Virus record (IMG/VR): IMGVR_UViG_3300045006_000141
Location: 1-36,502 of that record
Reading direction: 5' to 3' (one strand)
DNA: 36,502 nt
Source of the DNA: a virus
In this document: one piece after another, positions 1,576 through 28,800 of the stretch
Layout: each line of letters starts with the position of its first letter
How positions within the stretch are numbered: position 1 is the first letter of the stretch
Notes under the pieces: generated by a model
Databases searched by the model: none
Seen by the model: only the letters and a program-made list of their open reading frames with translations
What the model was told of the DNA's origin: nothing
Position numbers and translations under genes: made by a program

Positions 1576-1740
1576 TTGACAGACAAAGAATTTAAATCTA
1601 AAATAGAGTTTTTTATTTGTCCAGAGTGTGACGGTAGAGGTTACATAGAAAAATCTCGATGTCAGATTTGTAAAGGCAAAGGAGAAATTATATCCATTTT
1701 TTCTCAAAAGGATTTCGAAGATCCCCAGGTTTCTGATTAA
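1576..1740 (+). CDS. Small DnaJ-type zinc-finger protein
   Basis: This 54-aa frame has two CxxCxGxG motifs, CPECDGRG (residues 15-22) and CQICKGKG (residues 31-38), the pattern of the DnaJ zinc-binding domain and of small phage zinc-finger proteins. Four cysteines would bind one zinc ion. There is no in-frame ATG; TTG at 1576 is the best start, since the frame is open only back to 1519. A late-type promoter box and an AT-rich leader precede it. Its last 53 bases overlap, on the opposite strand, the 3' end of the terminase C-half. Likely a chaperone-like or RNA/protein-binding accessory; the role is unknown. Confidence 0.6.
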   Translation: MTDKEFKSKIEFFICPECDGRGYIEKSRCQICKGKGEIISIFSQKDFEDPQVSD

Positions 1741-3961
1741 ATGGACTCAAAAAAGGAATTGGTTTTATTTCAGGTTTAACTTTAGGATAGAATCTTTTAT
1801 GTGCTTTTCCAAAAGAATTATAATCTATAGTACTTCCATCATCTTTATTTCCCAAAAATTTCTGTAATATTTGTTTCTCTCTTTCCGTTAATATATAATC
1901 AACATAAGTGTCGACAAGATTTTTAAATTCATAATGATCGAACAAACTAGATAAATTTATCATGGACATAACACAATCGTCGTTTCCGCTTTCAGATTTG
2001 AAAGTTATTTCACCGCTTGGTGTTTCTTTTTTAGAAAAAGATTTTAATTCTATGACAGTAATATCATTATGTAATATTATACTATCTTTTTTAATAGCGT
2101 CTTGAAAGTCCTTCAATAGCAATTTTTTATTATGTCCTATCAATAGACCAAGTTTTGGTCTTTGATCTGATTCTCTATGTTTGAATCTTGCAAAAATAGC
2201 ATCCATAAAATTGTTGTTATCGTTAAAAACATGGCGCATATTATTGATAAGATCATTACCAAGATTCTTATTCATTTCAACAACTATTTTTACTTTTTCT
2301 GGATCGAAAATTTCAAACACTAATAAATATAATATATGTGCTATTTCATTTATTGAATATACATTGTTTCTAAATAATCCAATTTGCTCAAGTTTAAACA
2401 GATCATATTTGTTACTATAAATGTCCTTTTTCCTTTCTATTAATTTTTCATCTTTCATCATTAATCTGAATATGTTAAAAACAGAATAATCTAATCCCAA
2501 ACCTTCCGCTAAATCAATACCTATAGTTATATAATAATCTTTTGCTTTAGTCAATTCAAATAGATCTGGTCGATTTTTTATAAATTTTAAACTATTATAT
2601 GACAAATTAAATTTCTTTTCAAATATTTCTAAATACGGAGTATCGAATTCAAGTTGTTCATTCATAAAATTCTGAAACATTAAACTATCAAATAACAATT
2701 TATCGTCAATAACGAACTGGATTTCAAATTCTTGCTTGAACATACTTGGACCACCAATAATACCAGTTTGTTCTTCTTGCCAATTTGTTATTCTACAAAC
2801 TTCTGGCAATGGAATAATCTCATTTATTCTGAGTTGTCTTATATCGTCAATTCCACATTTTTCTCTGGGTATTTTTTCATCATCCTCAAAAAATTTTATT
2901 AAATGCCAATCTTCACCATCTAATTTTCTATAATAAACATCATAACCCATTTTTTTTAATTCTTCTAAAACCTCTTCTTTGGTTATATTATATTGACGTA
3001 ATTTAGATTCTATGAAATAAAGTTTTGTGTCGCGACGTCCTTTTACTTGGAACCAATAAACTCTCATTGGTTGATATTTATTCCATCTAGGATCACTTTT
3101 ATCTCTTTCGGCATCAGTTAACAATTCCCAGAATAAGTTATAACCATTTGGAGTAGAAGTAATAATAATCTTTGAATTTTCAATTGAAGAAACAGTAGGA
3201 ACAACCGATCCATAATATGCTCTAATTATATTATCTGGAACTTTTGCGAACTCATCTAGATATAACAAATCAATGGCAAAACCAATAGCTGGCTCTTTAG
3301 ATCTTGATTGACTTTGAATTCTGCTGTTGTTTTCGAATGCTATTTGTTTTTCGTTCCAGTTTGTTACTCCTATTTTTAAGAAAAATGGAAGTAATTTATA
3401 TATGTCTTTTATTTTGTGTATAATTTCTTTTACAGTTTCACTTTTGTTAGCCACGATCATAACACCTTTATCATCATTGAATAAAACAAGATGGAGAATA
3501 ACAATAGAAGCTGATATAGTATTTAAGTTTAATATATCGTTAGCGTAATAACTATGCTCATTAGAAAAAATCGATAAATCGAACATAGATACTTTATTTT
3601 TTAATTTCTTAATAGATTTTATTTTAGAAGGACCTTTTTTTGTTAGAATAATATCATTTTTTTCAAGATCTTTAATATATTTGATTATATGACCTTCGCA
3701 GAATATTCCATGAACATCCGCACATTCTAGTTTTAGACCATTCTCCAGCAATAATTCGTATATAGTATATGGTTGTGTCAAATTTATTTCTTCAACTGGA
3801 ACAAATCCATAATCGGTTTCAACTAATAAATTTTTAATTGATATAAAATTTATAATTTTTTTAAGAGGATCCGATTGATCAAAATCATGATTTTTATATT
3901 CAATTTTTTCTATTTTCTCAATTAAAAAATATATTATATTTTTCAAAATCTTTTTTAACAT
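1688..3961 (-). CDS. terL: Terminase large subunit, C-terminal half, with C-intein
   Basis: Residues 1-147 are the C-fragment of a split intein; residues 148-757 are terminase. The extein starts at T148, the Thr of Walker A, and continues like T4 gp17: a Walker B region LLYLDEF, the STPNG coupling motif, then an RNase H-fold nuclease with acidic residues in GIDLAEGLGLDYSVF, VVEMNK and GNDDCVMSM. The protein powers DNA packaging and cuts the concatemer. It has no Walker A lysine of its own; that lies in the N-half gene at 16275-16823, 12.3 kb away on the same strand. Spliced length would be 128+610=738 aa. The start ATG overlaps the stop of the endonuclease gene at 3955 by 7 bases, suggesting coupled translation. 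Confidence 0.92.
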   Translation of the reverse strand: MLKKILKNIIYFLIEKIEKIEYKNHDFDQSDPLKKIINFISIKNLLVETDYGFVPVEEINLTQPYTIYELLLENGLKLECADVHGIFCEGHIIKYIKDLEKNDIILTKKGPSKIKSIKKLKNKVSMFDLSIFSNEHSYYANDILNLNTISASIVILHLVLFNDDKGVMIVANKSETVKEIIHKIKDIYKLLPFFLKIGVTNWNEKQIAFENNSRIQSQSRSKEPAIGFAIDLLYLDEFAKVPDNIIRAYYGSVVPTVSSIENSKIIITSTPNGYNLFWELLTDAERDKSDPRWNKYQPMRVYWFQVKGRRDTKLYFIESKLRQYNITKEEVLEELKKMGYDVYYRKLDGEDWHLIKFFEDDEKIPREKCGIDDIRQLRINEIIPLPEVCRITNWQEEQTGIIGGPSMFKQEFEIQFVIDDKLLFDSLMFQNFMNEQLEFDTPYLEIFEKKFNLSYNSLKFIKNRPDLFELTKAKDYYITIGIDLAEGLGLDYSVFNIFRLMMKDEKLIERKKDIYSNKYDLFKLEQIGLFRNNVYSINEIAHILYLLVFEIFDPEKVKIVVEMNKNLGNDLINNMRHVFNDNNNFMDAIFARFKHRESDQRPKLGLLIGHNKKLLLKDFQDAIKKDSIILHNDITVIELKSFSKKETPSGEITFKSESGNDDCVMSMINLSSLFDHYEFKNLVDTYVDYILTEREKQILQKFLGNKDDGSTIDYNSFGKAHKRFYPKVKPEIKPIPFLSPFNQKPGDLRNPFEKKWI
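3521..3961 (-). other. Split-intein C-fragment (TerL)
   Basis: 147 residues. The intein block with the conserved His is seen in LECADVHGIFCEG, and the C-terminal block in VSMFDLSIFSNEHSYYA. The last residue is Asn147 followed by Thr+1. The penultimate residue is Leu (ILNLN), not the usual His, although the inteins in UvsX and the reductase here both end SHN. The first 22 residues form a lysine-rich amphipathic helix, MLKKILKNIIYFLIEKIEKI, that may pair with the similar helix ending the N-fragment. Nearly the whole splicing domain is here, so the split point is the atypical early type known from AceL-TerL. Confidence 0.85.
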
Positions 3962-5406
3962 GATACATATTTATATTTTAAATGACCCGAATCATATATT
4001 CTATATATATTTTTTTCTAGCATTATATCTTTTTCTGTTTTATTTGGATCATACCCTTCTTTTACCAATTTATCTTTTCTGAATCCAAATCTATATTTTC
4101 TTACCCCATCAACGACATAATAATAATTTGGTTTAGTTTTACATTCTAACATAAATCCTAATTTCTTATATAAATTTCCCTGACTCCAGCTTCTATCTGC
4201 ATAACTTATCACTTCTTTTGGATTATAATGTTCAATAAAATATTTAAATAATTTGCTAGCTCCTCCTACAACATTAGTGTTCAATTTGTTACAGAATCTA
4301 AGCATTTCATATGATTTTTCTACAAATTTATAACCCAACGGTTTTCTTAAATTACCAAACGTCATTAAACTTACCATTTCATCATTACAAAATAAACCAA
4401 TTTTGATTTTAGAGCCAACGAATCCTTGAATATGATTTTTTTCTAAAAAACTTCTAACTAGATTGTTATTTTTAATTTCCTTAATTTCACATTTTCTAGC
4501 CATTATTTTTTCAGATTTACCTACAATACTTATTATTCTAGATTTAACGATGTCTTGTTTATATATCCAATCATCTTCATAAACATGTATCAATCTTATT
4601 CCATGTTTTTCAGATATTTCTGTTTTTTCTTGATGATAATTATTTGGTTTATATAATTCGTTATGCCAATATACACCATTAAACTCAAACGCCAACTTTA
4701 ATTTAGGGATATAAATATCCAATTCTTTTTCTATAATATTCGTAGTATTAAATAAAATTTCATCATCATATATTTCTTCTATAAATTTTTGAAATTTTAT
4801 TTCTCTTCCACTTTTTGAATATGAATTTAATGGATTACAAATTGTACATATAATAGTTTTATATTTAACTCTATTACCAAGCAGTCCAAAATCTATATCG
4901 AATGAATGATTTTGTCCATTATCGCATTTAAAATTAGCTGTATGATTTTTAATATAGTTAATATTTAAATAATTATATTTTTTTAAAAGCCATTGCATTT
5001 GTTTATTTTTACTCTTATTTATAATTTCATTATTTTTACTAACTACTCCAAAACCATATTTATCGATGCAAGTTTTTTCTAATTTTTTTCTTATATTTAT
5101 ATTTTGTATAGGTCTTTCACATCCGTATTTTTCTATATTTGTTTTATTTATTTTTTCTTGACAACATTTCTGAGAACAACTATAAATATTATATTTCTTA
5201 TAATTTTTATAAAAAACAAAATATCTTATTTCTTTTTCTTTTCCACAAACATCGCATTTTACTTTTACTTTTTCTCTAGAATAAGGAGGAAGCTGATATG
5301 TTGGGATTTCGATTTCATCATTATATTTTATATCATATCCTAAATTTGAATAATACTTTAAATTTGGTTGTTTTATTTTTATTGTAATTTTATTGGATAG
5401 CAGCAT
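3955..5406 (-). CDS. Homing endonuclease, zinc-finger plus VSR-like nuclease
   Basis: 483 aa. The N-terminal part has a CDVCGKEKEI...CSQKCCQEK zinc-finger-like segment and 'NIEKYG'-type repeats typical of DNA-binding modules in phage homing nucleases. The middle part (about residues 200-280) fits the VSR-like EDxHD nuclease family: ELDIYIPKLKLAFEFNGVYWH, then YHQEKTEISEKHGIRLIHV and EDDW. The C-terminal third (NHIQGF, MTFGNLRKP, YEMLRFCN, VVGGASKLFKYF, SYADRSWSQG) is a module often attached to these enzymes. It cuts DNA to spread itself. It sits directly before the terminase C-half, overlapping by 7 bases. An 11-codon frame ends in TAA directly before its ATG. Own promoter box at 5441. Confidence 0.85.
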   Translation of the reverse strand: MLLSNKITIKIKQPNLKYYSNLGYDIKYNDEIEIPTYQLPPYSREKVKVKCDVCGKEKEIRYFVFYKNYKKYNIYSCSQKCCQEKINKTNIEKYGCERPIQNINIRKKLEKTCIDKYGFGVVSKNNEIINKSKNKQMQWLLKKYNYLNINYIKNHTANFKCDNGQNHSFDIDFGLLGNRVKYKTIICTICNPLNSYSKSGREIKFQKFIEEIYDDEILFNTTNIIEKELDIYIPKLKLAFEFNGVYWHNELYKPNNYHQEKTEISEKHGIRLIHVYEDDWIYKQDIVKSRIISIVGKSEKIMARKCEIKEIKNNNLVRSFLEKNHIQGFVGSKIKIGLFCNDEMVSLMTFGNLRKPLGYKFVEKSYEMLRFCNKLNTNVVGGASKLFKYFIEHYNPKEVISYADRSWSQGNLYKKLGFMLECKTKPNYYYVVDGVRKYRFGFRKDKLVKEGYDPNKTEKDIMLEKNIYRIYDSGHLKYKYVSC

Positions 5407-16274: not shown

Positions 16275-16439
16275 TTAATCTAATTTTTCTAATATATTAT
16301 ATAAAAATATTTTAATTTTTTCTAAAAAAGTCAATTTTCTATATTTTGCAATGTTTTCATAATATATTTTACCGAGATTTACTTTATAAATTTTTCCATA
16401 CTCGTCTTTTATATTTATTAACGTATTGAAAATCAAGCA
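16275..16439 (-). other. Split-intein N-fragment (TerL), very short
   Basis: 54 residues from Cys129. The intein N-block is CLIFNTLINIKDEYGKIYKV; the usual second block with the conserved His is absent and is found instead in the C-fragment. The tail KLTFLEKIKIFLYNILEKL is an amphipathic helix like the one that begins the C-fragment. The working N-part is thus about 30 residues plus a helix, like the AceL-TerL type (25-residue N-part). Confidence 0.85.
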
Positions 16440-16823
16440 CTTACCAATCTGACGCGAGGCCATTAATATACTATATCTATTCTCCGTATATAATTTAATA
16501 ATATCCTTTTGATAATCTCTTAATTTCATTTGGCCAATAGTTCCATCTTCAAGCTTAATCTTACAATAATGCTCTGCAAAATAATATACAGATAATTTAC
16601 ATTTTATATACTCCTCAATTTCTTCTTGAGTCATGGCAAATTTTATTCCTTTTCTACGAACACCATCGTTGGCATTAAACCAAAGTCTTTCCGTACGTTT
16701 CAAAGGAAGAGCCATGCTCTCTTTTTCGATAATTTCTTTTACTTTTTCTGTAGTAATGATATTAGTCTCATCTATTTTGGAATCCTTTATAACGCTTGTC
16801 ATATTTTGCTTTTTTCTTGGCAT
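16275..16823 (-). CDS. terL: Terminase large subunit, N-terminal half, with N-intein
   Basis: 182 aa. Residues 1-128 are the start of a gp17-type terminase: an adenine-binding-type region (GQMKLRDYQKDIIKLY) and the Walker A start SILMASRQIGK, compared with T4 gp17 SRQLGKT. Directly after the Walker A lysine, Cys129 begins an intein N-fragment. The missing Thr of the P-loop and the rest of the ATPase and nuclease are encoded by the gene at 1688-3961. Neither half can hydrolyse ATP alone. Transcribed leftward from an AT-rich divergent region shared with 17007; boxes of TATATATTAATATA type lie at 16855-16875. Confidence 0.9.
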   Translation of the reverse strand: MPRKKQNMTSVIKDSKIDETNIITTEKVKEIIEKESMALPLKRTERLWFNANDGVRRKGIKFAMTQEEIEEYIKCKLSVYYFAEHYCKIKLEDGTIGQMKLRDYQKDIIKLYTENRYSILMASRQIGKCLIFNTLINIKDEYGKIYKVNLGKIYYENIAKYRKLTFLEKIKIFLYNILEKLD

Positions 16824-17777: not shown

Positions 17778-20700
17778 TTGCAATATATGAAGGGTAATCA
17801 ATTTACAAACGAACTCAGTAAAGAAATATATGAACAGACATATAAATATGGAGATGAAACTCTAGAAAATACCCAACGAAGAGTCGCTCAAGACATAGCA
17901 TCAGTAGAAGAAGATAGAGAATTTTGGACCAATAAGTTCTTGGATATATTAGAAGATTTCAAGTTTGTTCCTGGTGGAAGAATTATATCTAATGCTGGAA
18001 CAAAAATTAGAGGAACTACCTATGTGAATTGTTTCGTGGACGGATTCGTTGGTAAACATCAAGATTCTGTATCTGGAATATTAGAGGCTCTTCGTCGTCA
18101 AGCGTTCATATTAAAGTCTGAAGGAGGATATGGATTTTGTGCTGACGTTATGCGTCCTAGAGGTGGTTATATTGAAGGCATTGCTAACGATACACCAGGA
18201 GCTGTTAAATGGTTAGATAATTGGAACACGCAATCTGATGTTATCACAGCCGGAAGTGGCAGAAGATCAGATAATAAAAAAGCAAAACAAAAAATTAGAA
18301 AAGGTGCCCAAATGGTCACAATGTCTTGCTGGCACCCAGATATTGAAGAATTTATTACAGCTAAACAAACTCCGGGTAGATTGGACAAGTTTAATATGAG
18401 CGTGTTGGTAACTGATGATTTCATGAATGCTGTTATAAACAACGATAAATGGGATTTAGTTTTTCCAGATTTTGATAAAGCCAAAGAAATTTATAATGAA
18501 ATTTGGGATGGAAATATTAAAAAATGGGTAGATGAAGGACATCCATTAAAAGTTTATAAAACATTTAAAGATGCTAACGAGCTTTGGGATCTTATAATGA
18601 AATCAACGTTTTCACGTAATGAACCAGGAGTTCTTTTTATTGATACTGTTAATAGATTAAATAATCTTTATTATAAAGAATATATTAGCTCGAGTAACCC
18701 TTGCGTTGTCGGTGAAACTCTTATTGCTACAGCAGACGGGAGAAATGCTGTGAGTATAAAGCAGTTGGCTGATGAAAGAGAAGATATTCCAGTTTATTCT
18801 ACAAATATCGATGGTAAAGTTGAGATTAAATGGGGAAGAAATCCAAGATTAACAGGAAAGAAAAAAGAAGTTTGGAAGCTCGTATTAGATGATGGTTCAG
18901 AATTTATATCAACACCAGATCATAAAATTTATTTGAAAAATAATACCTATGTAGAATTAAAAGATTTGAAATCGGGGGATTCTATATCTTCTTTTTACTC
19001 TTTTGCTTCTAATAAAAATTATAGACAAATATCACAAGTTGGTCATAAAATGGGTGATGGCATTTTTAGAAATAGAAGACAATATAGAATTATTTATGAA
19101 TTTTTTAATGGAACAGAAATAGATTATAATTTATATCGCATACATCATAAAGATTTCGATAGTAAAAATGATTCTATTAAAAATTTAGAACTGATGCTAA
19201 CAGATGATCACAAAAAATTGCATTCAGATAGAATTATTGGTGATGCTAATCCATACCATAGAATGTCTGATGAACAAAAATTCGCTTTTGCTTCACACCC
19301 CGGAGAAAAAAATCCAAAATATTCTGGAATAACTAATGAAATTCTATTAAAGAAAGCAAAAGAATTATATAAAAGAGAAGGAAAATTTACTATCGGTTTA
19401 TGGTTAAAATTTGCTAAAGAAGAAGGACTTCCTCACACCATTCATAATGATTTTAGATTCAAATCTTTTAGCAATTTTAAAAATCAAATTGTTGATAATC
19501 ATAAAGTTGTTAGCGTTGAATTTTATGGATATGAAGATGTGTATAATATAACAGTGGACGATAATCATAATTATAATGTTATAACATCATTTGAAGATGA
19601 CAGATATATCACATCGGGTGGTATATGTGTTAAAAATTGCGGCGAACAACTTCTTCCTATTGGAGGAATTTGCCTTTTAGGAAATCTTAATCTTACTCAG
19701 TTTATCAAAGAAGATTTTTCGGGATGGGATTATGATAAACTGAAAGAAATTATACCTATTGCGGTTCGTTTTATGGATAATGTTAATGATTTGACTTATG
19801 TGCCATTAGACGATCAAAAACAAAATCTAAAGAACAAACGCAGAATAGGTCTTGGAGTTCTTGGTTATGGAAGTGCTCTTCTTATAATGAAGAAAAGATA
19901 TGGTAGTAAAGAAGTTCTTAAACTTACAGAAGAATTAATGAGTTTCATAGCAAATACAGCTTATCAATCGTCTGCTCTTCTGGCAAAAGAGAAAGGGGCT
20001 TTTTTATTTTATGACGAAGAAAAATATTTGAAGAGTAATTACCTTGAAGTTTTATCAAAGGAAACCAAGGATTTGATTAAAAAACATGGAATTAGAAATT
20101 CACATTTGTTATCGATACAGCCCACAGGGAACAGTTCGATTTTGGCGAACGTCGCTTCAGGTGGTCTTGAGCCTGTATTTCTTTTTGAATATGTTAGAAC
20201 TGTAATTCAGCCTTATCCTCCAGAAGGTCTTGCTCTTCCACAAAATGTTGATTGGGTCAACCAGACGTTTAATGGAAATCAAAACTGGAAATGGATTAAA
20301 GAAGGTGACGAAAACATGTTAAAAGTAGAATTCAATGGCGATGTTTATAAATATGATAAAGGACGTGGAATTCTAAAAGAATCTGTTGTTAAAGATTATG
20401 GAGTTCGATTCTTAGAAGAAAGAGGTGAGTGGGATCATTCAGCAGATTGGGCAGCAAATATAAATAATTTAAAAATAGAAGATCATATTAATACAATGAA
20501 AGTTATTTCAAAGTATATAGATTCATCAATGAGTAAATGTGTTGTGGAGGGAACTTTAATATCGACGAACAAGGGTATAATTCCTATAGAATCTTTATCC
20601 GATAATATAACATATGATACATTTTCAGAACCTAATAATAACTATAAAGTATTAGATGAAAACGGAAATTTGAAAAATATATCTAAACATTATGTTGGCG

Positions 20701-22472
20701 GAGAAAAAGATTCTTATAATATAAAATTTAGTAATGGTTTTGATGTTAATGTTGCATATACACATAAATTTAAAACAGAAAACGGATGGAAAAATGTATT
20801 AGAATTACAAAATGATGATATTATTTTTTATAGATCAGATAAAATTCAAAATGATAATGAATATATTAAATTGAAAAATAAACCAGATTTTTATAATAGT
20901 GTAAAATATAAACATCCAGAAATAATTGATGAAAATTACGCCAAGTTTATAGGAATGTTATTATCTGATGGTTTTATAAATAAAAATAGTATAGGTATAG
21001 TAGAAAAAAATGGAAAAGACGGTAATGAAATAGATAGGTTGTTTGAAATTTTATTCAATGTTAAACCAAAAATAACAATAGATAAAAAAAATAATGTTAA
21101 ATATCATTTTCTAAATTCGCGTCCAATGGTTAAATTTTATAAAAATTTTATAGGCGATAACGATTTAAATAAAAATATTCCACAAGAAATTTTATTATCA
21201 AATGATAACGTGAAAAAATCTTTTTTATCTGGTCTAAGTTTGGACGGATATTTAAAAACAGATGATAAAAATTTAGTAATTTACTGTGGATATTCAAAAA
21301 ACATATCTTTAAAAACTTCTTATATTTTATCATCTCTTGGTTATGAATATCATATACAAGAAAAGAATGTTAAAAATGGTAAATTATCTAAAAAAATGTA
21401 TATTATAAAATCATATTTAACATCTAAAGAGATTATTCCTTTAGAGGATCATAAATTTGAGTATTCAATAAGTGGAAAAAAACACAAACAAATGTTTGTA
21501 GAAAATTCATATAAATATGATGTCTTACCACCAACAAAAAATGATAATTATTTTCTTTTTAGAAATCTTCGTAAATCATTGAGATCATCATCTTTTACAA
21601 GAAAAGAATTATTGGATAAAATTGGAGTTGAATATGATGATAATTTAACATGTGTTAAAATAACAAATATAAAATATATAGGAAAAAGAAAAGTTTATGA
21701 TATAGAGGTTGAAGATACTCACAGTTATTTAATTAATGGTATTGTATCTCATAATACAATCAATCTTCCAAACGAATATAAATATGAGGATTTTAAGAAT
21801 GTTTATTTAGAACTTTATCAAAGTAGAACCATAAAAGGCGGCACTACTTATAGAGCTGGAACAATGGCTACTGTTATAAAGAAAAAAGAAGAGGAAGCAA
21901 TATCTGTTTCACAAGAAAACAATGCCCCAAAACGTCCAAAAATATTGGAATGTGATGTTATTAGATTTACAAATAAAGGTGAAAGATGGATCGGTTTTAT
22001 AGGACTTAAAGATAATGCGCCATATGAAATATTTACAGGTTTTGCAGAATCCTTTGTTGTGCCTTCTTGGGTAGAAAGAGGTCAAATAAGGAAAGAAAAG
22101 GTAAAAAACAAAGATGGTGTTCTTGTATCACGTTATGACTTTGTTTATGTAGACAGGGAAGGGTACGAAGTAATAATGACCGGACTAAACAGAGCTTTTC
22201 AACGCGAATATTGGAACATAGGCAAAATGACAAGCGCTTTGCTTCGTCATAGAATACATCTTCCATCTGTTATTAATATCATAGAATCTTTAAATCTAGA
22301 CGGCGATGTTATGGGAACTTGGAAGAAAGGTATGACAAGAATGCTTAGAAAATATGTAAAAGAAGATAAAAATGATGGTATAGCCACATGTGATAATTGT
22401 GATTCCACAAATCTTCTTTTTAAAGAAAATTGTATATCTTGTTTGGATTGCAATTGGCAAAAATGTGAGTAA
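17778..22472 (+). CDS. nrdJ: Class II (cobalamin-dependent) ribonucleotide reductase with two inteins
   Basis: 1564 aa, 846 aa after removal of both inteins. It reduces ribonucleotides to deoxyribonucleotides using adenosylcobalamin, without a small subunit or oxygen. Signs: PGGRIISNAGT and SEGGYGFCADVMRPRGG in the N-terminal half; NP-CGEQLLPIGGICLLGNLNL, the finger loop with the radical cysteine (C621), after intein 1; HLLSIQPTGNSSILANVASGG; SK-TINLPNEY after intein 2; and a C-terminal cysteine cluster CDNCDS...CISCLDCNWQKC, typical of NrdJ redox shuttles. Intein 1 interrupts exactly before the radical cysteine. Terminators follow directly. Phage reductases raise dNTP supply for replication. 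A class I NrdA is unlikely because of the C-terminal cluster and the absence of nrdB here. Confidence 0.92.
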   Translation: MQYMKGNQFTNELSKEIYEQTYKYGDETLENTQRRVAQDIASVEEDREFWTNKFLDILEDFKFVPGGRIISNAGTKIRGTTYVNCFVDGFVGKHQDSVSGILEALRRQAFILKSEGGYGFCADVMRPRGGYIEGIANDTPGAVKWLDNWNTQSDVITAGSGRRSDNKKAKQKIRKGAQMVTMSCWHPDIEEFITAKQTPGRLDKFNMSVLVTDDFMNAVINNDKWDLVFPDFDKAKEIYNEIWDGNIKKWVDEGHPLKVYKTFKDANELWDLIMKSTFSRNEPGVLFIDTVNRLNNLYYKEYISSSNPCVVGETLIATADGRNAVSIKQLADEREDIPVYSTNIDGKVEIKWGRNPRLTGKKKEVWKLVLDDGSEFISTPDHKIYLKNNTYVELKDLKSGDSISSFYSFASNKNYRQISQVGHKMGDGIFRNRRQYRIIYEFFNGTEIDYNLYRIHHKDFDSKNDSIKNLELMLTDDHKKLHSDRIIGDANPYHRMSDEQKFAFASHPGEKNPKYSGITNEILLKKAKELYKREGKFTIGLWLKFAKEEGLPHTIHNDFRFKSFSNFKNQIVDNHKVVSVEFYGYEDVYNITVDDNHNYNVITSFEDDRYITSGGICVKNCGEQLLPIGGICLLGNLNLTQFIKEDFSGWDYDKLKEIIPIAVRFMDNVNDLTYVPLDDQKQNLKNKRRIGLGVLGYGSALLIMKKRYGSKEVLKLTEELMSFIANTAYQSSALLAKEKGAFLFYDEEKYLKSNYLEVLSKETKDLIKKHGIRNSHLLSIQPTGNSSILANVASGGLEPVFLFEYVRTVIQPYPPEGLALPQNVDWVNQTFNGNQNWKWIKEGDENMLKVEFNGDVYKYDKGRGILKESVVKDYGVRFLEERGEWDHSADWAANINNLKIEDHINTMKVISKYIDSSMSKCVVEGTLISTNKGIIPIESLSDNITYDTFSEPNNNYKVLDENGNLKNISKHYVGGEKDSYNIKFSNGFDVNVAYTHKFKTENGWKNVLELQNDDIIFYRSDKIQNDNEYIKLKNKPDFYNSVKYKHPEIIDENYAKFIGMLLSDGFINKNSIGIVEKNGKDGNEIDRLFEILFNVKPKITIDKKNNVKYHFLNSRPMVKFYKNFIGDNDLNKNIPQEILLSNDNVKKSFLSGLSLDGYLKTDDKNLVIYCGYSKNISLKTSYILSSLGYEYHIQEKNVKNGKLSKKMYIIKSYLTSKEIIPLEDHKFEYSISGKKHKQMFVENSYKYDVLPPTKNDNYFLFRNLRKSLRSSSFTRKELLDKIGVEYDDNLTCVKITNIKYIGKRKVYDIEVEDTHSYLINGIVSHNTINLPNEYKYEDFKNVYLELYQSRTIKGGTTYRAGTMATVIKKKEEEAISVSQENNAPKRPKILECDVIRFTNKGERWIGFIGLKDNAPYEIFTGFAESFVVPSWVERGQIRKEKVKNKDGVLVSRYDFVYVDREGYEVIMTGLNRAFQREYWNIGKMTSALLRHRIHLPSVINIIESLNLDGDVMGTWKKGMTRMLRKYVKEDKNDGIATCDNCDSTNLLFKENCISCLDCNWQKCE
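18702..19637 (+). other. Intein 1 of NrdJ, with HNH endonuclease
   Basis: Residues 309-620 (312 aa). It starts CVVGETLIATADGRN and ends VKN before Cys621. The His block is STPDHKIYLKNNTYVELKDL. The inserted endonuclease has an HNH core: YRIHHKDFDSKNDSIKNLEL and DDHKKLH. The C-terminal block is YEDVYNITVDDNHNYNV. Penultimate residue is Lys, not His. Splicing regenerates NPCGE at the catalytic cysteine. Confidence 0.9.
20538..21755 (+). other. Intein 2 of NrdJ, with LAGLIDADG endonuclease
   Basis: Residues 921-1326 (406 aa). It starts CVVEGTLISTNKG and ends GIVSHN before Thr1327. The His block is VAYTHKFKTENGWKNV. Two LAGLIDADG motifs, FIGMLLSDGFI and LSGLSLDGYL, mark the homing endonuclease. 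Its DNA is more AT-rich than the extein, which suggests separate descent. Confidence 0.9.
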
Positions 22473-23594: not shown

Positions 23595-24941
23595 TTATTT
23601 ACTATCTTCCATTATATCGTTTTCTATATTAAGATATTTTGGATGAAAATCAAATAGAATAGTTTCTTCTTTGTGATCTCCATCACGAAGTTTAAGAATC
23701 TTCAGTCTATACTTATTATGTTTCTTCATTTCTGTGTTACGAATAATACCCCACACACTATCCGCAGTTTCTGCAACAGCTTTACTCTCTGGTATATCTT
23801 GAAGTTTAATGTCATTTGCCCCCCAAACAGCTCTATCTACCTGAGTTGCTGTTATTAAAGCTAAATTAAATTTATCAGCAAGATATCTTAAACCTTCAGC
23901 TAAATGTTTACCTTTTTGATAAAGATTAGAGCCAATATCTTTATGAAGTTTATCAACGGACATAAGATTAATATAGTCAACTACAACTATATCAATATCG
24001 ATACATTTATGTTCTTCTAGTTTAGTTAAATAATTATCTATATCAGTTATATTACAATCACCAGTATTGAATTTTTTAACAAAAATTTTACCAGGATTTT
24101 CTGTATTAAATAAACCATTACCTTGATTTTTTAAAAGATTTATTCTATTTTTAATAAAAGTACTATCCTTACTAATTTCATCGTATTCATCAATGTCTAT
24201 TTTTAGACGCATGGCTCCAATACGTTTGATAACTTTGCGTTGCGACATTTCAACAGTTATAATAGCTACATTTTTCCCCATGTTCGCAGCATTGCACGCT
24301 ATGTTGTATAACCACATGGATTTTCCAACCGAAGTTTCTCCCATTAAAACATTAAATGTCGCTTTATCCCAACCCCCATGTAAAATTAAATCAACATTTG
24401 CCCAACCACTTGAAATCTTATTTTTTGAGATATCTTGTTTATGAGCATCTGGATCATCAAAATCTGCTCCCAAATCTTCATCATCATCTTCCAATAAGAC
24501 GAGTTCGTTAGTCATAGAACGAAGTTTCGCTGTAACGTCGATTATATTATCATAATCTAATTCTTTTAGATTTCTGATTAATTCTATACCTCCATAAACG
24601 TTATTCTTTATAAGATTCGTTTGACGCCACGCTTTGAATTTTTTCTCAAGCCAATCTTGATCGTGAACCGCATTGTCATTTTTAAGTATAGCTTTTATGA
24701 TATTATTTGAAATTTTTTCCTCGGGATCGCGAAGCTTTATCATCGCGACTATTTGTTGTGGAGTTGGAGTTTTTTTACTTTTTGAGACACTAAATTCGTC
24801 TCTAACTATTCTATAAATAAATTGAATATCCTCATTTTTAAAAAAATCGGGTTCAACTTTGTAAAATTGTGTAGGATGATCTAATATCCACGTGAAGAAA
24901 AATTTCTCCATTTGAACATTCATCACTTCTTTTTCATTCAT
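23595..24941 (-). CDS. Replicative DNA helicase, DnaB/gp41 family
   Basis: 448 aa, close to T4 gp41 (475 aa). It unwinds DNA ahead of the fork as a hexamer and works with a primase. The N-terminal 150 residues are the helical DnaB-N-like domain. The RecA-type motor has Walker A GETSVGKS (201-208), the motif IITVEMSQRKVIKRIGA after strand 2, Walker B DIDIVVVDYINLM (about 316-328), and the sensor TATQVDR. DnaB enzymes usually have EMS and TQ at these places, as here. An insertion-free frame shows no intein, although this gene is a known split-intein site in related phages. The 93 bases before it hold a GTCC/GGAC hairpin (about 24963-24977) that may affect expression. Confidence 0.9.
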   Translation of the reverse strand: MNEKEVMNVQMEKFFFTWILDHPTQFYKVEPDFFKNEDIQFIYRIVRDEFSVSKSKKTPTPQQIVAMIKLRDPEEKISNNIIKAILKNDNAVHDQDWLEKKFKAWRQTNLIKNNVYGGIELIRNLKELDYDNIIDVTAKLRSMTNELVLLEDDDEDLGADFDDPDAHKQDISKNKISSGWANVDLILHGGWDKATFNVLMGETSVGKSMWLYNIACNAANMGKNVAIITVEMSQRKVIKRIGAMRLKIDIDEYDEISKDSTFIKNRINLLKNQGNGLFNTENPGKIFVKKFNTGDCNITDIDNYLTKLEEHKCIDIDIVVVDYINLMSVDKLHKDIGSNLYQKGKHLAEGLRYLADKFNLALITATQVDRAVWGANDIKLQDIPESKAVAETADSVWGIIRNTEMKKHNKYRLKILKLRDGDHKEETILFDFHPKYLNIENDIMEDSK

Positions 24942-25034: not shown

Positions 25035-25172
25035 TTATTTGTTTCGCTTATCGAAATCTTTTCTTAATAATTTAAGCAGTTTTTTTAATTGTTTTTCAGT
25101 AGGATTCTTTCCATTTTTAGTGCATATAAATAGAGGCAAACTATTTAAAAATTCTTTTTCTTCGTTTTTCAT
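25035..25172 (-). CDS. 45-aa basic small protein
   Basis: MKNEEKEFLNSLPLFICTKN, then GKNPTEKQLKKLLKLLRKDF and a basic end. Its ATG overlaps the stop of the upstream gene (ATGA), a sign of translational coupling. The C-terminal half is an amphipathic lysine/leucine helix. It lies between the ADP-ribosyltransferase-like gene and the helicase gene. Not recognised. Confidence 0.65.
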   Translation of the reverse strand: MKNEEKEFLNSLPLFICTKNGKNPTEKQLKKLLKLLRKDFDKRNK

Positions 25173-25870
25173 AATTTTTCTATTTTTATTATAGAATAAG
25201 GTGGAATATTTTCGTATGTGTAATAAGCTTTTACATAAGGCACAAATTTTGGATCTTCGTGTAATTTAATATTATTCAAAGTTTTAACATCAATTTTTAA
25301 AATAACAAAATCTTTTAATTCTTTAAAATCTATGAAATCATAACAATCATCCACATTTAGAAAAAAATAAATTCTCTCGGGATGTCCTTCTATATATTTT
25401 TTTGATTTTGGAACGATTCCTTTAATATTTATTTTATCAATATATTTTTCTTCAGTAACATGATACAAAAATTCTGGAATGTCTGCAAATTCATTATCAA
25501 ATTTTTTGTTTAGATATATTAAAATATTTTTATTTTTTATAAAATCAGTAAAACTTATTTTGCCTTTTTCAAGAGCATTATTATTTATTTTATAATTTGA
25601 AATATAATAACCCAAATTATTTAACAAGGATTCAAAATCTACATAAAATGATTTTCTTTTATAAATATTGTCTTCTTCTAAAATTAATGTTATTCTATCT
25701 TTTCCCACGTATAATTCACAAAATCCTTTAATATTATGCTTCAATAACAAATCATTAATTTTAATTATAGCAAAATCATATTCCGCTGATCTTATTAATC
25801 CTTCTTTTAGAAGATCGTAATTGAAATTATTTAATTTTTTTTCTTTTAATAATTCTAAAAATCCATACAT
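25169..25870 (-). CDS. ADP-ribosyltransferase-fold (KptA/ART-like) protein, putative
   Basis: 233 aa. Residues about 130-233 have the order of features of the KptA/PARP-like fold: FLYHVTEEKYIDKINIKGIV (the 'lyHvT....i...Gl.P' NAD-binding start), HPERIYFFLNVDDC, FVILKIDVKTLNN, and AYYTYENIPPYSIIKIEKL at the end. Enzymes of this fold move ADP-ribose from NAD onto protein, RNA or DNA, or remove RNA 2'-phosphates. T4 uses ADP-ribosyltransferases to modify host polymerase. The N-terminal 130 residues are unknown; a segment YDLLKEGLIRS there resembles a head-protease site. Activity unproven: the catalytic Glu cannot be fixed by eye. Lies 11 nt after UvsX-C. Confidence 0.45.
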   Translation of the reverse strand: MYGFLELLKEKKLNNFNYDLLKEGLIRSAEYDFAIIKINDLLLKHNIKGFCELYVGKDRITLILEEDNIYKRKSFYVDFESLLNNLGYYISNYKINNNALEKGKISFTDFIKNKNILIYLNKKFDNEFADIPEFLYHVTEEKYIDKINIKGIVPKSKKYIEGHPERIYFFLNVDDCYDFIDFKELKDFVILKIDVKTLNNIKLHEDPKFVPYVKAYYTYENIPPYSIIKIEKL

Positions 25871-25881
25871 TTTTAACTAAT

Positions 25882-26571
25882 TTAACTAAATAATTTTTCA
25901 TCATCACTATCTATTTCAAAATCAATATCTTGCTCAAATTCTGCATATTGTTCATCAAGAGCTTCCATTTCTTTTTGATATTCTTCATAAGATGCATATC
26001 TGAAATATTCATAAATAATCGGTTCTAACGCCTCGAGAACTTCGCGTGTAAATACTTTGCTATTGTATAATTGACTATCAAATAATGTTTTGTCGAGGTG
26101 TTTTACATACCATTTCGATCCTGATTCGTAAGTTATTTCTCCCGTTTTCTTATCAACTACTGGTTTTACTTTTGCGATTCCTACTTTTTCAAAATTTTCT
26201 GGTGTACAGAAATAATCCAATCCCTTAAATTCATTGCATCCTTTTGAATGATCGATTTCAAATTTAACTTTCTTTGGTTTTGCCAATCTATTTTTTCTTG
26301 CCATTGCTGTGATAATAATTCCAGTTGATCCTGTTGATAATTCATCTTTATCTTTGTCTTCGAGTTTAGCTCTAGATAATAAAATAATAATTGAAGCTAA
26401 GTAATTTAAACCTTCACCACCAGTTTGAACTGTTTGTGGAAAGAGATCTTGTGTATTATGTGAAACTATTCCGTTTTCTAATATATAATGGTGAGAACCT
26501 TCTATATTCACATCGTAAGTTTTTTCTAATTCTTCTAAATATTCAATTTTTTTAATTTTAATTTGTTTCAT
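25882..26571 (-). CDS. uvsX: UvsX recombinase, C-terminal half, with C-intein
   Basis: 229 aa. Residues 1-39 are an intein C-fragment ending GIVSHN; Thr40 starts the extein TQDLFPQTVQTGGEGLNYLA, matching the UvsX/RecA region with the DNA-binding loop 2 and the following strand (ASIIILLSRAKLE). ITAMARKNRLAKPKKVKFEI is the conserved end of the core. The acidic tail DIDFEIDSDDEKLFS is typical of phage UvsX. Together with the N-half (218 extein residues) it gives a 408-aa recombinase, near the size of T4 UvsX (391 aa). It starts within the end of the endonuclease gene (14-base overlap). Confidence 0.92.
   Translation of the reverse strand: MKQIKIKKIEYLEELEKTYDVNIEGSHHYILENGIVSHNTQDLFPQTVQTGGEGLNYLASIIILLSRAKLEDKDKDELSTGSTGIIITAMARKNRLAKPKKVKFEIDHSKGCNEFKGLDYFCTPENFEKVGIAKVKPVVDKKTGEITYESGSKWYVKHLDKTLFDSQLYNSKVFTREVLEALEPIIYEYFRYASYEEYQKEMEALDEQYAEFEQDIDFEIDSDDEKLFS
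26455..26571 (-). other. Split-intein C-fragment (UvsX)
   Basis: 39 residues: IKKIEYLEELEKTYDVNIEG, then HHYILENGIVSHN. It holds the C-terminal blocks with the expected His, penultimate His and terminal Asn. This is the usual split position (long N, short C). Confidence 0.92.
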
Positions 26572-27781
26572 ATTTTTTATATTCTTTTTTATCTATTATT
26601 AAAAATTCAAAATTTATGTTCAGATCTTCGCAGGATTTCTTCTTTAGAAGATTTATTTCCAAATCTTTGTTATAAGTATATTCTGATTTTATCTCATAAA
26701 TTTTATTTTTACTTTTTATATAAAAATCTGGATAATATCTATGTTTTTTATTTTTATATTCATAAAAAATTTTGCCTATTTGTTTTTCAATATCTTCTTT
26801 TTTAATAAATATATCATCTATATTGTATTTTTTTAATAAAATTTCAAATAAAGCATAATTTTCATATCCCTGCAAGAATATTATATTTTCATTTATAGTA
26901 TATTCTTTATATGTATTTTTTCTATTCTTTATTAATTTATCGAAATTATTTTGATCTTGAATCCAATATTTAACTCCATACTTTTTCAACATCGTGGATT
27001 CTCTTCTCTCTATAAGTCTATTCTTATTATCAATATTTTCTACGTAATTTTTATTATATGTCTTTTTAGCTTTTTCTTTTATATCGTCATTGCACATCGC
27101 TGAAACGTTTCCAAATTTTTGCAAATTTGTTTTTAATGTTTTTTCTTTTACTACCTTGCTTTTAGATGGAATGTCAACCCCCCATTTTTCAATATTATTT
27201 TTTTTGATTTTTTCTCTAATTCCATTTATTTTTAAATTATGATCACAACTATATTTTTCTATTAAAGTTTTTCTAGATTTATCGTGCGTTATTTTTTTCT
27301 CAAAAGGACTAACATAACCAAAATTATTTTTCATATATTCTTTAAATTCTTTAGTTTTGGCATAAGAATCAACGCCATATTTTTCCAAAAGAGTATTTCT
27401 TATTTTATTTCTTATGATTTTTTTCTCATCTGTAGATTTATTTTTTTGATTTACACTTATTCTATTTCTTCTTAATTTTTCTTTCTCTGGATCTCTATTA
27501 AGAATTTTATATTCTTTTTTACATTTTTTATCTGAACAAGTATGTTTATATATGCTATATTTAGCATTCCATTCCAAATTGTTCGTTTTACATATTGAAC
27601 AAATAGATCTTTCTTTTAATCCATATTTTATATTAAACAATCTTTCTTTTAAGGAACGTTTTTCATCTAAAAAATTCGTCAATTTTTTTATTTTTTCATA
27701 TATATTTTTGTCTTTATTTACCATTCTTATATAAGATGATAAACTTTTACATTTTTTTATTTTTAATATGAGATCTTCCAT
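26558..27781 (-). CDS. Homing endonuclease between UvsX halves, PD-(D/E)XK/VSR-like
   Basis: 407 aa. Residues 60-95 hold a zinc finger (CSICKTNN...CSDKKCKKEY). Residues about 125-270 are repeats of the form 'TLLEKYGVDSYAKTKEFKE', also present in the 3955 endonuclease, probably DNA-recognition modules. The C-terminal 110 residues carry the nuclease: KKHRYYPDFYIKSKNKIYEIKS, i.e. PD...ExK. It sits alone between the two parts of the split recombinase, has its own promoter box at 27798, and would spread the split intein by cutting uninterrupted uvsX. Confidence 0.88.
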   Translation of the reverse strand: MEDLILKIKKCKSLSSYIRMVNKDKNIYEKIKKLTNFLDEKRSLKERLFNIKYGLKERSICSICKTNNLEWNAKYSIYKHTCSDKKCKKEYKILNRDPEKEKLRRNRISVNQKNKSTDEKKIIRNKIRNTLLEKYGVDSYAKTKEFKEYMKNNFGYVSPFEKKITHDKSRKTLIEKYSCDHNLKINGIREKIKKNNIEKWGVDIPSKSKVVKEKTLKTNLQKFGNVSAMCNDDIKEKAKKTYNKNYVENIDNKNRLIERRESTMLKKYGVKYWIQDQNNFDKLIKNRKNTYKEYTINENIIFLQGYENYALFEILLKKYNIDDIFIKKEDIEKQIGKIFYEYKNKKHRYYPDFYIKSKNKIYEIKSEYTYNKDLEINLLKKKSCEDLNINFEFLIIDKKEYKKYETN

Positions 27782-27797
27782 TTAATTTTTCTTTTTA

Positions 27798-27812
27798 TCG
27801 TATATATTAAAA
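27798..27812 (-). promoter_or_regulatory. Late-type promoter box inside the fractured uvsX locus
   Basis: The minus strand reads TTTTAATATATACGA, 17 nt before the endonuclease ATG at 27781 and after the stop of the N-half. It would also supply extra transcript of the C-half. Confidence 0.6.
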
Positions 27813-27846
27813 TGAAAATCCCATTTATTTCCACTAATCATAAATA

Positions 27847-28800
27847 TTAGACATTTTCAACTGATAATATTATATCGTCTTCTTTTAAATCCTCCGCTTT
27901 TTTCCAGCATTCATTATTTTCATCACGATTCCAATTTTCTTTTATTAAAAATTTGTGTTGAGGTGTACATTTTATAATATCACCATTTTCTAATGTTAAT
28001 TTAATTATTGGCGATTTTGGATATTCGTAAATTTCTATAACTGGTTTATCGCCGTCCAAAGTTTTTACAGTATCTCCTTTTTTTAAATTTTCTATTAATT
28101 CATAACTGCCGTCTGATTTTAATATTTTATGACCCCCAGTTAAACATAAATATGTATGATTCGTTGCCACTAAAGGAATATTGAGATAACCAAGGTCGTC
28201 GATAATAATTCTAAGCATTGATTTGGTAGCCTTTGCTCTACTCATATCTTGTTTATCAGCTCCTTTTATTGCATCTTCAACTTCTTTCTTTGAAGCGAGT
28301 GCTCCCAAACTATCAATTATAAATATAGTTTTAGAAACATCTTCACCTTTTTCTTTTTGTGATTTTAACTCATCTAATAATTGAGCTAGGAAAATTTTTA
28401 GATTTTCCACTTTATTACTTCTAACGAGCATAAATTTGTTTGGATCGGAAGTATCTATTCCAAACATATCGAAATCACTATTTTCGATAGAGAATTCTGT
28501 ATCTATGTAAATTACATTATATCTTTCTTTTTGAGCGTTTCTTACTATATTTAAACATATATAAGATTTTCCTGTTTGATAAGGGCCTGCAAAAATAGTA
28601 AATCTATTTGTTGGAACTCCACCTTTAAGAATGCTTTTGGAGAGAAGTGCGTTTAGAATATAAATTCCTGTACCGATATATTTTCTTTCTCTCTTTAAAT
28701 TATCTATTGTTATCAACGATTTCTTCGATAGACCTTCAATAACACTGGATATTTTTCCTAAATTGAATTCATTTTCTTTCTTTGATGTGGTTTTAGCCAT
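27847..28800 (-). CDS. uvsX: UvsX recombinase, N-terminal half, with N-intein
   Basis: 317 aa. Residues 1-218 are the RecA-fold core: Walker A GPYQTGKS (72-79), YIDTEFS with the catalytic acid region, Walker B KTIFIIDSLGALAS, and IPLVATNHTYL at loop 2, where T4 and RecA have VVNHT or TNQ. From Cys219 the sequence is an intein N-fragment. UvsX forms filaments on single-stranded DNA for strand exchange and recombination-dependent replication. The start overlaps a promoter-like box TTTTTAATATATG, so the mRNA may have a very short leader. Confidence 0.93.
   Translation of the reverse strand: MAKTTSKKENEFNLGKISSVIEGLSKKSLITIDNLKRERKYIGTGIYILNALLSKSILKGGVPTNRFTIFAGPYQTGKSYICLNIVRNAQKERYNVIYIDTEFSIENSDFDMFGIDTSDPNKFMLVRSNKVENLKIFLAQLLDELKSQKEKGEDVSKTIFIIDSLGALASKKEVEDAIKGADKQDMSRAKATKSMLRIIIDDLGYLNIPLVATNHTYLCLTGGHKILKSDGSYELIENLKKGDTVKTLDGDKPVIEIYEYPKSPIIKLTLENGDIIKCTPQHKFLIKENWNRDENNECWKKAEDLKEDDIILSVENV
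27850..28146 (-). other. Split-intein N-fragment (UvsX)
   Basis: 99 residues, CLTGGHKILKSDGSYELIEN, then the His block CTPQHKFLIKENW, ending DLKEDDIILSVENV. This is the canonical N-part of a split intein. The next codon after the last block is a stop. Confidence 0.92.

Follow-up and report, generated by a model that had tools for sequence, protein, structure and literature searches.

A uvsX gene broken by a split intein and a free-standing endonuclease: a probable mobile element with candidate I-TevI-like control

We analysed a 36,502-nucleotide (nt) stretch of viral DNA, IMG/VR record IMGVR_UViG_3300045006_000141 (the window), with attention to its uvsX gene, which encodes a UvsX-like recombinase and lies in pieces on the minus strand. 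The record consists of this one contig of 36.5 kb. Very probably, this uvsX carries a mobile fractured-gene element, inserted where the gene encodes loop L2 of the recombinase; its control is probably in the manner of T4 I-TevI. The open reading frame (ORF) map gives the order uvsX N-half, endonuclease ORF and uvsX C-half (Table 1), and the order and coordinates in an earlier reading of the window (the original prediction) match these ORFs exactly. The N-half ends in the N-terminal part of an intein (IntN) and the C-half opens with the C-terminal part (IntC), whose own ATG sits within the 3′ end of the endonuclease ORF. The endonuclease and C-half ORFs overlap, as had been claimed, the overlap being 14 nt (26558-26571). 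Joined, the exteins of 218 and 190 amino acids (aa) would form a 408-aa UvsX with the junction NHTYL|TQDLF, the same length and break point as predicted. Independent contigs repeat this layout, which rules out a sequencing or assembly error or a frameshift.

The broken gene belongs to the UvsX family by its Walker A motif, its L2 and its whole-protein sequence relation. The N-half matches PHROG 97 (UvsX-like recombinase; E 9e-48) and scores above the Pfam RecA cut-off, and an intact relative at locus L013 (L numbers designate the loci compared) matches UvsX 9gbg and recombinase 7z3m (E 2e-36 for each). A HMMER alignment through an intact relative places NHTYL on NQIRM of E. coli RecA, at the start of L2, which we take to be RecA residues 195-209. 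By this alignment, the split falls in L2, a critical DNA-binding loop, in keeping with the loop 2 region named in the original prediction.

Table 1. Features of the fractured uvsX locus in the window (order as on the minus strand)
Feature	Coordinates	Strand	Description
N-half ORF	28800-27847	minus	317 aa = 218-aa UvsX N-extein + 99-aa IntN
uvsX N-extein	28147..28800	minus	218 aa; Walker A GPYQTGKS; last residues NHTYL
IntN	27850..28146	minus	99 aa; begins with Cys1 (CLTGGHKI); block B CTPQH
N-half stop codon	27847-27849	minus	TAA
Conserved noncoding element	27824..27838	minus	ATTAGTGGAAATAAA, 15 nt; upstream of endonuclease promoter; candidate operator
Predicted RNA hairpin	27768..27824	minus	-14.4 kcal/mol, z -4.6; in read-through transcripts
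Promoter-like box of endonuclease gene	27801..27812	minus	TTTTAATATATA, exact match
Endonuclease ORF	27781-26558	minus	407 aa; own start and stop
C-half ORF	26571-25882	minus	229 aa = 39-aa IntC + 190-aa UvsX C-extein
IntC	26455..26571	minus	39 aa; block F TYDVNIEGSHHYIL; block G GIVSHN
uvsX C-extein	25885..26454	minus	190 aa; first residue Thr+1 (TQDLF)
C-half stop codon	25882-25884	minus	

Both intein halves are recognized by profile models. NCBIfam intein_Nterm scores 33.7 bits over N-half residues 219-286 (cut-off 24.5), and intein_Cterm scores 25.1 bits at the expected IntC residues (cut-off 15.6). The class-1 set is complete, with Cys1, block B TPQH, the terminal His-Asn and a +1 Thr. 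C1, T61 and H64 of IntN and H38 and N39 of IntC are unchanged across seven sequences; the sole exception to the set is a +1 Ser in L018. The ratio of nonsynonymous to synonymous substitution rates (dN/dS) of the intein is low. This invariance and low ratio speak against the reading in which the halves act as a non-covalent two-subunit UvsX and the intein halves are relics, as with NrdA and mobE of phage Aeh1. Split enzymes without splicing do occur in T4-like phages (PMC2988022); here, however, the split lies within L2 with a whole intein between the parts, unlike the mobE insertions. We regard such a two-subunit enzyme as highly unlikely. A group I or II intron was also considered and rejected, as the region has no Rfam match and the intein halves are in frame. 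The best-supported reading of the locus is a gene fractured by a split intein, together with a free-standing endonuclease. By all features examined (a broken enzyme gene, complementary intein halves and an endonuclease ORF between them), the locus is, as read from its sequence, a member of the fractured-gene class.

A dead element, in which the insertion inactivated uvsX and another recombinase or an off-contig second uvsX took over, would be extremely unlikely in our view: the 36.5-kb record leaves room for a second copy, but the dN/dS of the UvsX halves relative to intact genes is far below 1, and a search of seven relative contigs and a 735-kb relative genome found no second uvsX.

Comparison with relatives defines the insert exactly. 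In about 30 loci uvsX is whole, the N- and C-exteins abutting without a gap. Intact UvsX from L013 is 90% identical to the window over the N-extein and 94% over the C-extein, and that of the complete 735-kb phage LR756501 is 88% identical. These closest relatives lack precisely a 1,692-nt insert; the stretch found only in the window relative to LR756501 is 28149-26455, save one unalignable codon, and window 28149-26455 is also the stretch missing from L002. Six further loci hold the intein at the identical uvsX site. Three (L009, L015 and L017) share the three-gene layout and cassette of the window. L018 has a single 644-aa ORF in which endonuclease, IntC and C-extein are joined in frame, and in L016 the endonuclease has decayed to a 58-aa tail while the uvsX halves are still separate. 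L020 has a contiguous cis mini-intein in a 567-aa ORF (Pfam Intein_splicing, 52 bits). As L020 branches within the split forms of the intein tree (support 96/94, with uncertain rooting), it apparently represents re-fusion of a split gene, the simplest reading; the predicted structure of its mini-intein was unusable (predicted local distance difference test score 50). The original prediction had recognized the known fractured-gene form and proposed comparison with phages that have a whole uvsX. The intein models, the exact empty sites and the recurring cassette all bear out the former, and the comparison returned relatives lacking exactly the insert.

The ORF between the halves encodes a 407-aa protein that matches Pfam DUF7487 with 130 bits (cut-off 27) and PHROG homing endonuclease families with E 9e-12. 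It has zinc-finger-like cysteines (C61/C64/C82/C87), helical repeats and a C-terminal nuclease-like domain. The four cysteines, together with E307, D352 and E363-x-K365, are invariant in five relatives, and these E/D/ExK residues suggest a possible endonuclease of the PD-(D/E)XK, Vsr/TnsA-like type. A TnsA-like Pfam match (E 0.0026) is below cut-off, and Foldseek with the model of the endonuclease gave no match at E < 0.001. A single-sequence scan recovered no relatives; an alignment-based scan recovered distant ones, mostly without this type of intein adjoining. With a dN/dS of about 0.24 between L009 and L017 and about 0.3 in more distant pairs, the endonuclease gene is, by these estimates, under purifying selection.

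The distribution and divergence of the cassette point to mobility. On a UvsX tree of 31 rows, seven gains or losses are required to account for the seven genes that carry the intein, the maximum, and the window uvsX groups among intact genes with support of 100/100. Synonymous divergence between L009 and L017 is 0.54 in the exteins, 0.25 in the intein and 0.30 in the endonuclease (p 0.0005). Between the window and L009 it is 0.67 in the exteins versus 0.48 and 0.55 in the cassette (p 0.001), and the cassette again lies below the exteins for window-L017 (p 0.001), window-L015 (p 0.0085) and other pairs. Because the tree demands seven changes and the cassette is less diverged in the best-resolved pairs, the insert reads as a mobile homing element, with patchy use of one exact site and apparent horizontal spread. 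The alternative is vertical inheritance, in which an ancestral cassette has been lost repeatedly and the endonuclease is no longer mobile. It would agree with intein and extein trees that show no strong conflict and with the loss states in L016 and L020. We nevertheless consider it unlikely, as a split insert would seldom be lost exactly, seven changes are needed for seven carriers, and the lower synonymous divergence of the cassette, strongest for L009-L017, recurs in several pairs.

Several results speak against the mobile, endonuclease-driven element. The synonymous drop in the cassette is not significant for L009-L015 (p 0.11) or L016-L009 (p 0.30), and many of the extein synonymous comparisons are near saturation. 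A co-conversion tract near the junction, looked for against L013 and LR756501, was not visible. Finally, the nuclease domain resembles known folds only weakly, with Z 6.7 for TnsA, 5.5 for Vsr and 5.4 for I-Bth0305I, these scores lying below the level that the comparison method itself calls common.

The original prediction had also given the endonuclease its own promoter box. This claim gains from the finding that the box is a repeated and enriched motif with an exact copy at 27812-27801. Allowing at most one mismatch, TTTTAATATATA occurs 20 times in the window versus 6.3 expected, a count that none of 100 shuffles reached, and of 27 TT[AT]ATATAT sites, 11 are in sense orientation and precede a gene start by no more than 50 nt (binomial p 7e-12). 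Upstream of genes, the boxes mostly stand 26-50 nt before endonuclease and structural gene starts. Examples are found at 27801, 15230, 10805, 7714 and 31151, often preceded by a T run; the helicase and reductase genes are without a box, and at uvsX a box merely overlaps the start codon. By eye, relatives have another stretch, TTAAACTTTT, in common upstream of their uvsX genes. Scans for sigma-70 promoters and terminators gave no excess.

Upstream of the box lies a 15-nt noncoding element, ATTAGTGGAAATAAA, which is identical in the four three-gene loci (window, L009, L015 and L017) and present as a variant in L018; from element start to box end measures 38 nt in all five. In L009 a 125-aa ORF without a Pfam match (4463-4840) stands between IntN and the endonuclease promoter. 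Since this ORF parts IntN from the element, the element and box belong with the endonuclease and not with uvsX. A scan of viral contigs with the element and box pattern gave no hits beyond the four fractured contigs already known. As the T4 operator resembles its homing site (PMC2988022), we compared the element with uvsX on the assumption that the homing site coincides with the insertion site. The best match falls within an interval from -30 to +24 around the insertion point in 21 of 24 uvsX genes. None of 500 column-permuted matrices reached this count and one reached the aligned score, and none of 3,000 GC-matched 17-mers from the window did as well as the element at the insertion site; the 24 genes are homologous, so that these tests address the motif and not independent sites. 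Two half-sites flanking the insertion point, at +7 and -28, match the element, both on the minus strand, and L002 has an identical 12-nt core of the match, GTGGAAATAAAT. The promoter-linked resemblance to the insertion site suggests an operator mimicking the homing site, by analogy with T4 I-TevI.

A plain upstream part of the promoter, mimicking no homing site, is a serious contender for this element, if somewhat short of probable. The element stands directly upstream of the promoter-like box, and the 38 nt that span the two are constant across the five loci; both features would suit such a role. However, the other box-bearing genes of the window are without the element; there is no second exact match, and matches with at most three mismatches number 11 versus 9.7 expected in the window. 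The concentration of the best uvsX matches at the insertion site likewise favours the homing-site mimic.

A predicted RNA hairpin spans the endonuclease start codon, with its 5′ arm upstream of the box. Its z values range from -0.8 to -5.7 (-4.6 in the window, -5.7 in L018 and weaker in three loci), compared with +1.0 to -2.1 for box-bearing control regions. Covariation was not significant, with one compensatory pair and 107 of 500 shuffles as good.

In the mechanism that we propose, each uvsX half would be translated on its own, the 99-aa IntN and the 39-aa IntC would associate, and trans-splicing would yield a scarless 408-aa UvsX, as the complete set of splicing residues suggests. The 407-aa DUF7487 endonuclease would have a phage promoter to itself, probably a late one, and would cut insert-free uvsX alleles during co-infection, and repair off the occupied genome would copy the 1,692-nt cassette. 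Cutting and copying of this kind predict the distribution and divergence pattern that was found. The endonuclease would probably repress itself by binding the homing-site-like element beside its promoter, and in uvsX transcripts that read through, the hairpin may mask the endonuclease start codon; both forms of control would parallel T4 I-TevI. Taken together, we offer only tentatively that the endonuclease regulates itself through a half-site-like element by a late promoter, that its target consists of two similar half-sites on the same strand about 35 bp apart, and that the split state is ancestral and was healed at least once to a cis mini-intein (L020).

The window holds further broken or intein-bearing genes. 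As the original prediction had stated, it also has a far-split TerL, one part at 16275-16823 and the other at 1688-3961 on the minus strand of this contig. There is a short IntN after QIGK and a long IntC, and next to each half lies an endonuclease gene. LR756501 (609229-611493 and 623868-624401) and contig G007 have TerL split in the same way. Since these share it, the TerL split is, on this comparison, older and fixed in the lineage, whereas the uvsX insert is patchy. The further proposal that the two splits are stages of the same process stands in part: both splits are present and TerL is the older, but nothing shows a uvsX-like stage for TerL. The ribonucleotide reductase large chain (17778-22472, plus strand, 1564 aa) contains two inteins, both contiguous, of which one has an HNH domain. 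The helicase gene beside uvsX is whole in the window (23595-24941); in L009 (6908-7627), L016 (5721-6443), L018 (5775-6497) and L020 (3335-4054) it is broken after Walker A (GETNVGK), with a short IntN-like tail after the break. Between uvsX and the helicase, the window has a 233-aa gene (25169-25870, minus strand) with a weak RNA 2′-phosphotransferase-like match, which is not there in LR756501.

Across related huge phages, a single uvsX site thus occurs empty, fractured, with the endonuclease fused, with it decayed, and apparently re-joined. With this full series at one site, the order of events in gene fracture and whether it can be reversed become open to test, where otherwise there would be only scattered examples. 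UvsX performs the strand exchange needed for homing, and the element is lodged in an enzyme that may copy it. The compact intein halves (99 + 39 aa), with complete splicing residues, are candidate protein-ligation tools. The fractured-gene kind itself is already known; what gives the locus its value is that one site shows every state, along with the lead on a candidate operator. A search of the collected literature found no paper joining uvsX and a split intein, and those read among the papers naming uvsX and inteins do not deal with a uvsX intein.

Dassa et al. 2009 (Nucleic Acids Res 37:2560; cited in PMC10448857 and PMC6892783) reportedly described fractured genes for enzymes of DNA metabolism, with a split intein and a free-standing endonuclease between the halves. 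The window shares this arrangement, in uvsX at L2 as the host gene, and differs from that set in its DUF7487 endonuclease and in the empty, fused, decayed and cis alleles at one site. A more distant case, Prevotella phage Lak-B5 (L006), also has a split-intein uvsX in which the ORF of an endonuclease runs into the start of the C-half, but its site (AMG|SGI) is further downstream, its endonuclease is different, and its ORFs are open only when TAG is read as Gln. The uvsX of Lak-A2 is whole at the Lak-B5 break point. In both Lak phages (loci at L006 4983-8116 and L007 3983-5278), a free-standing relative of the window endonuclease lies just downstream of uvsX. Jumbo phage MIJ3 has a DNA polymerase B split intein with an HNH endonuclease in the same N-half/endonuclease/C-half order, in another host gene and with another endonuclease family (PMC6892783). 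The mini-intein of Pyrococcus horikoshii RadA, whose splicing responds to single-stranded DNA, is likewise in a RecA-family recombinase; it lies contiguous in the P-loop without an endonuclease, whereas that of the window is in L2, split and accompanied by one (PMC5790916). For control, the closest parallels are T4 I-TevI and Aeh1 mobE, which have their own late promoter within a start-site hairpin in read-through RNA (PMC2988022). These two are intron-borne or plain insertions, whereas the window has a split intein and its regulation is predicted. I-TevI also has a promoter-linked operator resembling its homing site (PMC2988022), a counterpart to the candidate operator in the window.
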